In this document: positions 22,667-24,962 of the stretch, piece after piece
How the letters are laid out: the number at the start of each line of letters is the position of its first letter
How positions within the stretch are numbered: position 1 is the first letter of the stretch
Source of the DNA: an uncultured Clostridia bacterium
Lineage (GTDB): Bacteria; Bacillota; Clostridia; Oscillospirales; Ruminococcaceae
Direction of reading: 5' to 3'
Assembly (NCBI GenBank): GCA_944387885.1
Contig: CALXGR010000006.1
Location: 1-64,000, forward strand
Length of the DNA stretch: 64,000 nucleotides
The notes under the pieces: model-generated
Told to the model about the DNA's origin: nothing
The model's input: the letters and a program-made list of their open reading frames with translations, nothing else
The model's database searches: none
Translations under genes and position numbers: made by a program

Positions 22667-22722
22667 GGAAAAAGCCTGTGAAACCGCCCGGTTCTCCTTA
22701 ATTTTTCATGAAGAAGTCAGGA

Positions 22723-23435
22723 CCCCCGGCTAAGCCGGGGGCTTGTGTAAGCCCTAGAAGGGCATAATACGGACAACGCCCCTCAAGGGGCCACGAATGG
22801 GTCGGCCAACTGCATTGCTGACTCATGGCGGCCCCTTAAGGGGCTATTTTTATGCCTTGGAATTCTTGCTACCCGTAAACGGGTCCACAAATTCTCTCAA
22901 ACTCATTTGATCCGCTATTTGATCTTCCTCCAGTTGGTGCTTGATGTACTCTTGTATTTGCTTTTTGTTTCTTCCCACTGTATCAACGTAATATCCTCTA
23001 GCCCAGAAATGTCGATCTCCATATTTGTACTTCAAGTTTGCGTGTCTGTCAAAAATCATTAGGCTACTTTTCCCTTTGAGGTACCCCATGATTTGTGATA
23101 CACTATACTTCGGAGGGATACTCAGCAACATATGGATGTGATCCGGACAAGCCTGTGCTTCTATGATTTCCACACCTTTTTGTTCGCACAGCTTTCTTAA
23201 AATTTGCCCAATATCTTGTTTGATTTGACCATATATTGCCATCCGACGGTATTTGGGCGCAAACACTATATGATATTGGCATCTCCATGTTGTGTGTTGT
23301 AGCGTTTCGATATCCTTCTCTTTCATGTTAAAAGACCTCCTGGTTTTATTGTTGCAGTTGGCCGACCGCAACTTTATTCTACCAGAAGGTCTTTTTCACT
23401 ATATAATCTCTTTACACTCCCCGGCATAGCCGGGG
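22723..23435 (-). mobile_element. IS200-type insertion sequence, tnpA only
   Basis: A compact element with a single Y1 transposase gene and no tnpB. Both ends carry nearly identical subterminal hairpins, CCCCCGGC-TAA-GCCGGGGG at 22723-22741 and CCCCGGC-ATA-GCCGGGG at 23419-23435, the structures TnpA binds as single-stranded DNA in this family. True cleavage points lie some bases outside these hairpins and cannot be fixed here, and no target duplication is expected. A 14-base segment at 22801-22814 is the exact reverse complement of 23353-23366, so the two untranslated ends of the tnpA transcript can pair. Confidence 0.85.
22850..23326 (-). CDS. tnpA: IS200 family Y1 transposase TnpA
   Basis: A 158-residue HuH single-strand transposase. 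The ATG at 23326 has CAGGAGGTC upstream; the longer frame has no support. The metal-binding HuH motif is in CPDHIHMLLSIPPKYS (residues about 65-80), and the catalytic tyrosine lies in FWARGYYVDTVG (about 115-125). FAPKYRR near residue 28 is also characteristic. The frame looks intact and could be active. A hairpin-forming segment lies just upstream of the ribosome binding site (GTTGC...GCAAC, 23351-23372), a known style of translational repression in IS200 elements. Confidence 0.93.
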   Translation of the reverse strand: MKEKDIETLQHTTWRCQYHIVFAPKYRRMAIYGQIKQDIGQILRKLCEQKGVEIIEAQACPDHIHMLLSIPPKYSVSQIMGYLKGKSSLMIFDRHANLKYKYGDRHFWARGYYVDTVGRNKKQIQEYIKHQLEEDQIADQMSLREFVDPFTGSKNSKA

Positions 23436-23467
23436 GTTGTTGTTGCGCTTAAGCTAACAATACAAAG

Positions 23468-23502
23468 AAAAGGAGTGAACACCATCCGGTGTCACTCCTT
23501 TT
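23468..23502 (-). terminator. Probable original terminator of rpsB-tsf
   Basis: On the minus strand, AAAAGGAGTGA-CACC with loop GGAT pairs to GGTG-TCACTCCTTTT and is followed by a T-rich stretch. It is now 546 bases from the tsf stop. Removing the 524-bp element and one copy of GAATA would put it about 22 bases from the stop, a normal terminator distance. Confidence 0.65.
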
Positions 23503-23510
23503 AAGCAAAA

Positions 23511-23515
23511 GAATA
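23511..23515. repeat. Left copy of 5-bp target site duplication GAATA
   Basis: GAATA directly abuts the TGT end at 23516. The same five bases follow the opposite ACA end at 24039. Confidence 0.6.
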
Positions 23516-23612
23516 TGTTCCCCACACTCCTATTTTGTCCAAAGAAGGTTCCTATATTGTCCAAGGGAGGTAAAGGGGAATCAGGGGAAATTAAGGCTAA
23601 AAGCAGATGCGA

Positions 23613-23664
23613 ATTTAAAATAAAAAAAAGAGAACGGCACCCCATAAAGGAGTGACGTTCTCTT
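23613..23664 (-). terminator. Minus-strand terminator inside the miniature element
   Basis: On the minus strand, AAGAGAACG pairs with CGTTCTCTT through a long imperfect hairpin, followed by a TTTTTTTTATTTT run. It would end a minus-strand transcript starting within or near the right end of the element. Confidence 0.6.
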
Positions 23665-23983
23665 AATATTGAGGGCCTGTTACCCTCCTCACAACCCCAA
23701 AGAGATGGAGTGAGGATTGAAACAGATTATTCCACGGAGGCAGGGCCAGGTGGCCTCAGGAGGGCGTTTCGGGACGGAATAAGGTCCGTGTATTCCCTCG
23801 TAAAAACCCCGTAGAATCCCGTTTTTGTCCGCTTCCGGCGCTCTTGTTTTTTGAGCAGTTTCCTTGTTCAAATCTCATGCGGAAGTCCCGTGGGACCCGA
23901 TAAGATTCCTGTCCTCCCCAGTTGGAAACCGCATTTCCTCCGGTTTTCTCTTGTCCTCCCCTACTATGAGGAGGGTACAAGAG
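23665..23983 (-). ncRNA. Possible structured RNA carried by the miniature element
   Basis: No supported protein frame lies here. The minus-strand transcript would begin near a strong hairpin (23948-23983; arms CTCTTGT and ACAAGAG plus CCTCC pairing) and end at the terminator near 23640. An 11-base perfect inverted repeat (23681-23691 with 23967-23977) would bring its ends together, as in closed multi-branch RNAs. I do not recognise an RNA family, and expression is not shown. The call rests on structure potential only. Confidence 0.3.
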
Positions 23984-24039
23984 TTCCCCCGAAGGACAAA
24001 ATAGGCTGCCTATTCGGACAAAATAGAAAGTTGATTACA

Positions 24040-24044
24040 GAATA
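24040..24044. repeat. Right copy of target site duplication GAATA
   Basis: Five bases directly after the ACA tip at 24039, identical to 23511-23515. It begins 8 bases from the tsf stop codon. Confidence 0.6.
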
Positions 24045-24047
24045 ATA

Positions 24048-24962
24048 TTACTTTGCCATGCTGGCGACTTCTGCTGCGAAGTCATCCTGACGCTTCTCCA
24101 GGCCTTCGCCCTTCTCAAAGCGCTCGAACTTGACGATCTTAATGGAGCCGCCCAGTTCCTTGGCGGTCTTCTCAGTGTACTGAGCCACGTTCATATCGCC
24201 GTCCTTAACGAAAGCCTGATCGACCAGGCAGTTCTCCTTGTAGAACTTGCCGATCTTGCCCAGAATCATCTTCTCCTTGATGTTCTGGGGCTTGTTGGCA
24301 TTCTTGGGATCATTGTCCATCTGAGCCAGGAGGATTTCCTTCTCCTTCTCCAGAGCCTCAGCGGGGACCTCTTCCTTGCAGACGTAAGCAGGGTTTACTG
24401 CAGCGATCTGCATGGCGATATCCTTGCCGTAAGCCTCGAAGCCAGCCTTGTCGGCCACGTCGGTATCGAAGTTAACCAGAACAGCGTGGGTGCCGCCGCC
24501 ATGGATGTAAGCAGCGCAGACACCCTCGTAACGGACGAAACGGCGAACCTTAATGTTCTCCTTGATAACCAGAATCAGGCCCTTCAGAGCATCGTCAACG
24601 GTGCCGTCGCCCATCTTGCAGCCCATGAGAGCTTCAACATCGGCGGGGTTCTCCTTGATGATAACCTGAGCGCAGTCCTTAACAAACTGAACAAACTTAT
24701 CGTTCTTAGCAACGAAGTCGGTCTCAGCGTTAACTTCCAGCACAACGCCTACCTTGCACTCGGGGCAGTAGGTGGCGTAAACCATGCCCTCAGCAGCAAC
24801 ACGGCCTGCCTTCTTGGCAGCGGTAGCCAGACCCTTCTCACGGAGCAGTTCGATAGCCTTCTGGAAATCGCCGTTGGCGTCAGCCAGAGCCTTCTTGCAC
24901 TCCATCATGCCGCAGTCGGTCTGCTTACGCAGTTCCATAACGTCCTTAGCGGAAATAGCCAT
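24048..24962 (-). CDS. tsf: Translation elongation factor Ts
   Basis: Guanine nucleotide exchange factor that recycles EF-Tu. The 304-residue protein begins with the UBA-like domain MAISAKDVMELRKQTDCGMM and continues with the universal CKKALADANGDFQKAIELLR and ETDFVAKND signature that contacts EF-Tu. Codon use is strongly biased, as expected for a highly expressed gene. It lies 40 bases behind rpsB and is co-transcribed with it. The gene is intact, but the 524-bp element begins 3 bases after its stop codon and appears to have moved its terminator away. Confidence 0.97.
   Translation of the reverse strand: MAISAKDVMELRKQTDCGMMECKKALADANGDFQKAIELLREKGLATAAKKAGRVAAEGMVYATYCPECKVGVVLEVNAETDFVAKNDKFVQFVKDCAQVIIKENPADVEALMGCKMGDGTVDDALKGLILVIKENIKVRRFVRYEGVCAAYIHGGGTHAVLVNFDTDVADKAGFEAYGKDIAMQIAAVNPAYVCKEEVPAEALEKEKEILLAQMDNDPKNANKPQNIKEKMILGKIGKFYKENCLVDQAFVKDGDMNVAQYTEKTAKELGGSIKIVKFERFEKGEGLEKRQDDFAAEVASMAK

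Follow-up and report, generated by a model that had tools for sequence, protein, structure and literature searches.

In transposon Tn7, the TnsD protein reads the 3' end of the glmS coding sequence, and insertion occurs in a controlled orientation with 5-bp target duplications (PMC11406308). The attachment genes named for Tn7-like transposons are glmS, yhiN, comM, parE, tRNA genes, guaC, yciA, ffs, and rsmJ (PMC11406308), and the sites in the left end of Tn7 have the form GGACAAAATAG (PMC1475584). Tn7-like transposons are valued because they insert DNA at a single safe location; a new attachment gene together with its target selector would be a new address for site-specific DNA insertion.

The element analyzed here lies behind the elongation factor Ts gene (tsf) in a 64-kb stretch of bacterial DNA, which we call the window. 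It resembles Tn7 and the Tn7-like transposons targeted by TnsD or TniQ in having TGT...ACA tips, arrays of sites spaced by about 22 bp at both ends, and a 5-bp duplication. Like Tn7, it occurs in a single orientation just past the 3' coding end of an essential gene. In contrast to Tn7, it lacks genes, contains just two sites at each end, carries its own predicted terminator, and its sites read CTATTTTGTCC inward, that is, opposite to the GGACAAAATAG of Tn7 relative to the tips. Its attachment gene, tsf, is also absent from the published list (PMC11406308). Queries combining Tn7 with tsf or elongation factor Ts, and others for Tn7-type MITEs, yielded nothing relevant in the searchable literature, with most subscription papers and supplements outside the search. 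The tsf gene appears to be a landing site, not listed before, for a Tn7-like family. With bacterial MITEs the element shares its short, gene-free structure, inverted ends, target duplication, and presumed movement in trans; unlike them, it has one chromosomal address behind tsf, a fixed orientation, its own predicted terminator, and a single copy in the genome of the window.

An insertion between tsf and the host terminator

The tsf gene (304 aa; minus strand, 24048..24962) is followed by a gene-free, non-autonomous element of 524 bp (23516..24039), with TGT at 23516 and ACA at the tsf-proximal tip, 24039. Both sides are flanked by the 5-bp target duplication GAATA; the tsf-distal copy (23511..23515) belongs to the best pair found by the detector, and the tsf-proximal copy (24040..24044) was identified both in the sequence and by the detector. 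Each end contains two repeats of the TTGTCC type with a period of 22, inverted between the ends. In particular, the distal end has CTATTTTGTCC, a putative transposase-binding site (23530..23540), and CTATATTGTCC (23552..23562) on the plus strand, and the tsf-proximal end has two copies of CTATTTTGTCC on the minus strand (24016..24026 and 23994..24004). The tips, paired repeats, period, inversion, and flanking GAATA had been described in the initial annotation, and all of them can be read directly. It also regarded the unequal distance between tip and CTATT (14 on the left and 13 on the right) as a weak point. The inequality is real, but the distance from tip to TTGTCC is 18 or 19 in related elements as well, one of which (G514) has the same 18/19 asymmetry.

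An exact 5-bp duplication combined with a TGT...ACA pair 200-1000 bp apart occurs just nine times in the window, and only for the pair 23516-24039 do the ends pair at the observed score. In the control, none of 342 such pairs from 40 Markov sequences matched this score. The ends of the element together with its duplication are therefore beyond chance.

The displaced host terminator of tsf (minus strand, 23468..23502; fold -21.2 kcal/mol, z -5.4) is situated 11 nt past the element. Removal of the element and one GAATA in silico places the beginning of its stem 16 nt after the tsf stop, rather than about 22 bases as previously annotated. The joined flanks have a layout similar to that of G001, a genome of the same genus whose tsf is 95% identical at the protein level and 89.5% at the DNA level. 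The tsf 3' end of G001 is empty, with a terminator some 25 nt after the stop. Similarly, the tsf site is empty in G027 and occupied in G514, a member of the same genus; a search for tsf loci free of the insertion had been proposed in the initial annotation. Since the tsf end is empty within the same genus, and kin with other 5-bp duplications lie behind tsf elsewhere, the 524-bp segment is a real insertion.

The initial annotation held that the insertion cuts tsf from its terminator. The host terminator is indeed displaced, but the element supplies a predicted intrinsic terminator of its own in the tsf direction (minus strand, 23620..23664), which had been missed. It consists of a stem at 23628-23664 and a T run at 23620-23627, has a fold of -22.5 kcal/mol (z -7.7), and was also found by a scan. 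A tsf-sense hairpin followed by T's is predicted in 11 of 11 copies examined, that is, in the window and ten kin, with energies from -16.6 to -31.8 kcal/mol. Because all 11 copies carry such a structure, tsf is predicted not to be left unterminated: the element moves the host terminator away and brings a replacement. These hairpins probably act as terminators in the cell. As the element brings a strong predicted terminator in the tsf direction, its insertion would cost the host little, and the family suggests how a homing element could stay harmless behind an essential gene.

Related elements at tsf 3' ends

The search for copies with the same ends, also proposed earlier, gave a divided answer. 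No second copy exists in the window's own genome assembly (2.04 Mb, 85% complete) at up to 3 mismatches, but kin were detected behind tsf in relatives. The strict pattern of the window element matched only its own copy among 394 genomes of the order, and among 27 tsf loci of relatives clustered TTGTCC repeats were present 3' of the gene only in the window and in G016. A pattern of three TTGTCC repeats, applied to 397 genomes of the family, gave two loci behind tsf (G016 and G647), the other matches being mostly tandem or coding repeats. The profile constructed from these two loci and run over 328 family genomes produced five matches above noise, all located directly 3' of tsf (G647, G016, G609, G482, and, weakly, G514).

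We also surveyed 155 tsf loci for paired end repeats at most 95 nt from the stop and observed them in 12, compared to 6 of 741 control windows. Inspection by eye left ten clear loci and two that are likely due to chance; two of the ten (G647 and G609) came from the earlier searches and not from the survey itself. Together with a decayed copy in G482, the clear cases represent nine genera of the family, including that of the window, in a sample of relatives whose genomes are probably for the most part draft or metagenome assemblies. Comparison of the element with phages and plasmids by BLAST gave nothing useful. Matches to the end pattern in genome and viral collections were tandem or coding repeats, and those inspected had no adjoining transposase.

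Two elements from different genera have exact 5-bp duplications of their own: ATTTG flanks the 410-bp element of G527, and TTTCG the 409-bp element of G033. These elements are 93.9% identical, compared to 72.8% for the respective tsf genes. Likewise, the elements of G016 and G609 share 97% identity over 164 nt, and their tsf genes 70.6%. Since the identity of the elements far exceeds that of tsf across genera, the sequence comparison indicates horizontal movement of the family between genera. Within one genus, G609 and G482 have tsf genes 96.6% identical and very different element copies. Not all flanks are exact. The strongly paired ends of the G514 element (about 730 bp) are flanked by a repeat of only 4 bp, GTCT, and the element of G459 (about 465 bp) by TTTTC and TTTTT, with one mismatch.

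All clear kin are located at tsf 3' ends at a fixed distance and in a fixed orientation relative to the gene, the latter judged by two features that concur in every copy, namely the proximal-end sequence common to them and the tsf-sense terminator. The reference point for the spacing was the first nucleotide of the DFAAEVA codons (position 24083 in the window). In the six elements with a definable tip, the tsf-side tip is 42, 43, 43, 44, 44, and 45 bp from the (D/N)FAxE(V/I)A codons; counted from the tsf stop, the same tips have a wider spread, 3-9 nt. The duplicated sequences differ between tsf loci. Given the tight codon ruler, the wider range of stop distances, and the differing duplications, the place of insertion seems to be determined by the coding end of tsf rather than by the sequence that is cut. 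A protein probably reads the tsf 3' coding region, with the putative target-recognition region, as placed by the ruler, at 24051..24110 (minus strand; codons KGEGLEK...DFAAEVA). These elements constitute a site-specific mobile family. The initial annotation had overlooked that the insertion is non-random and that tsf is a recurrent target with fixed orientation.

Transposition genes at the tsf locus of another family

A transposase encoded elsewhere in the same genome, as the initial annotation supposed, was not detected: the 85%-complete assembly yielded neither rve nor TniQ nor true IS21 genes. In the order as a whole TniQ is rare, with eleven loci in 10 of 394 genomes, a set that covers part of the family. 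No relatives of TnsB were found in viral contigs. One of the eleven TniQ loci, on contig C41 of G115, a member of another family, is situated behind tsf; none of the others is near tsf within the stretches inspected. The gene order on C41 is tsf, a 223-bp element, tnsA, tnsB, tnsC, tniQ, a resolvase gene and cargo, a 222-bp element, ATTG, and a host-type terminator. The 223-bp element has the form TGTACTTGTCC...GATCACA and contains a predicted terminator. The TnsA match is just under the cut-off (PF08722, E 2.6e-5), and TnsB has rve and Mu-transpos_C domains, its nearest solved relative being TnsB of Tn7 (7pik, E 1.2e-41). TnsC is of the TniB type, TniQ has 402 aa (E 1.5e-20), and the cargo, on visual inspection, contains a system of the restriction-modification type. 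Of the transposase gene that the initial annotation had proposed to look for, none was found in the own genome; a TnsB-encoding module is present at the tsf of G115, the single locus on which the link rests.

The search for the distal transposon end of G115 by inverted matching found none; instead, a direct 222-bp copy of the first element, 88% identical to it, was seen. The tetranucleotide ATTG is present at the outer tips of both copies, as if the element-module-element array had moved as one unit. The tnsABC-tniQ module is bounded by 12-bp inverted sequences of its own, TGGTAYCTAAGG, and may represent a distinct transposon that likewise uses tsf. The two copies flank a 39.5-kb module and are nearly identical in the first ~110 bp and the last 45 bp, with a different middle. 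Such near identity of the ends may reflect selection or conversion acting on them.

Proposed mechanism and alternative explanations

Mobility, the anatomy of the ends, and the constancy of site, orientation, and spacing are observed directly. They are best explained, in our opinion with good probability, by a family of non-autonomous Tn7-like elements that homes to the tsf 3' end, uses TnsABC-TniQ in trans, and limits the cost to the host by its own terminator. According to this model, a Tn7-type TnsAB transposase would act in trans and recognize the TTGTCC sites spaced by 22 bp at both ends, TnsB being the probable binding protein. TnsC and a TniQ/TnsD selector reading the tsf codons would steer the element to a point ~43 bp past the conserved codons at the tsf end, where it would always insert the same way round and generate a 5-bp duplication. 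The tsf-direction terminator of the element would then replace the stop signal that has been pushed away. That Tn7-type proteins move the element is suggested by its anatomy and by the G115 locus. The 5-bp duplication is exact in the window, G527, and G033. Counted against the model are the lack of a transposase and of a second copy in the own genome, the dependence of the tnsABC-tniQ link on G115 with its separately bounded module, the rarity of TniQ in the order, the inward reading of the sites opposite to that in Tn7, the 4-bp duplications of G514 and G115 if the TGT/ACA tips are kept, and the mismatch in G459. The initial annotation, which described a miniature Tn7/Mu-type mobile element, agrees with the kin that have different duplications, the empty sites within genera, and the tnsABC-tniQ genes of G115. 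Overall, its observation is confirmed and its interpretation partly supported.

Alternatively, a different DDE transposase, acting on ends with several repeats (IS21-type IstA, Tn552, or Mu type) and happening to prefer tsf 3' ends, could move the same kind of mobile element, the G115 module being an unrelated second visitor, as its own 12-bp inverted boundaries would allow. IS21 elements can likewise have TG...CA ends, repeats inside them, and duplications of 4-8 bp, and the IS21 family and its derivatives thus resemble the element in ends, repeated internal sites, and short duplications, and have a transposase of the rve type. IS21 transposases above the cut-off were found in 10 of 197 genomes of the order. 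On the other hand, the own genome has no IS21 gene above the cut-off, and the loci examined around IS21 or TniQ matches show no repeated TTGTCC ends. IS21 does not keep to a single gene in a single orientation; to our knowledge, a fixed site, a fixed orientation, and a ruler set by a coding sequence are not traits of this family. We consider such a transposase unlikely, and assignment to IS21 was not retained.

The two remaining explanations have very little probability. An immobile region, either an ancestral tsf 3'-UTR or a small-RNA region with conserved repeats, would account for the near-constant distance of the repeats past the tsf stop and for the terminator that comes next in every case. 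Consistent with it, the tsf-sense strand of 23516-24039 folds far better than shuffled sequences (z -7.2), partly due to the inverted ends and the terminator, which do not account for the element interior. This reading was rejected in view of the exact 5-bp duplications that differ by locus and the empty sites within the same genus; the identity of the elements across genera, far above that of tsf, also contradicts it. Equally improbable is homing by an RNA guide matching tsf, as in CRISPR-associated Tn7-like elements. The element does contain GGATTGAAAC at 23714-23723, similar to a CRISPR repeat, with an Rfam score of 17 bits where the gathering score is 45 (E 1.8); the longer segment GGAGTGAGGATTGAAAC at 23707-23723 is like a CRISPR-repeat end (a non-significant match of 17 bits to Rfam CRISPR-DR9). 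Nevertheless, comparison of six elements with the tsf 3' end gave longest matches of 6-8 nt, and shuffled sequences reach 9-11, so that no tsf-matching spacer beyond chance is seen and this candidate was discarded. The G115 module, for its part, has TniQ and no Cas match among the genes tested.

Returning to Tn7-type movement in trans, one can tentatively, and with more doubt than confidence, extend it to a wider proposal: tsf would be a new Tn7-type attachment site occupied mainly by gene-free satellites with borrowed TnsABC-TniQ and replacement terminators, and the satellites of G115 would be the end cassettes of its module. The tsf gene is essential and occurs in almost all of the genomes surveyed (orthologs in 146 of 153 genomes of the family). 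The elements, with lengths between about 220 and about 730 bp, would offer naturally occurring Tn7-type satellites, all gene-free, for work on minimal ends.

Finally, two other features concern the surroundings of tsf and its 3' end. A lone 77-nt copy of the tsf 3' coding end (66 of 77 positions identical) is present elsewhere in the own genome (contig C24, 24166-24246), with a pyruvate:ferredoxin-oxidoreductase-like gene on one side, the end of a ferredoxin-like gene on the other, and no TTGTCC repeats beside it. The window also contains an IS200/IS605-type element (22720-23440) with a Y1 transposase (Pfam, E 9.8e-41) and end hairpins, immediately after the displaced terminator of tsf.
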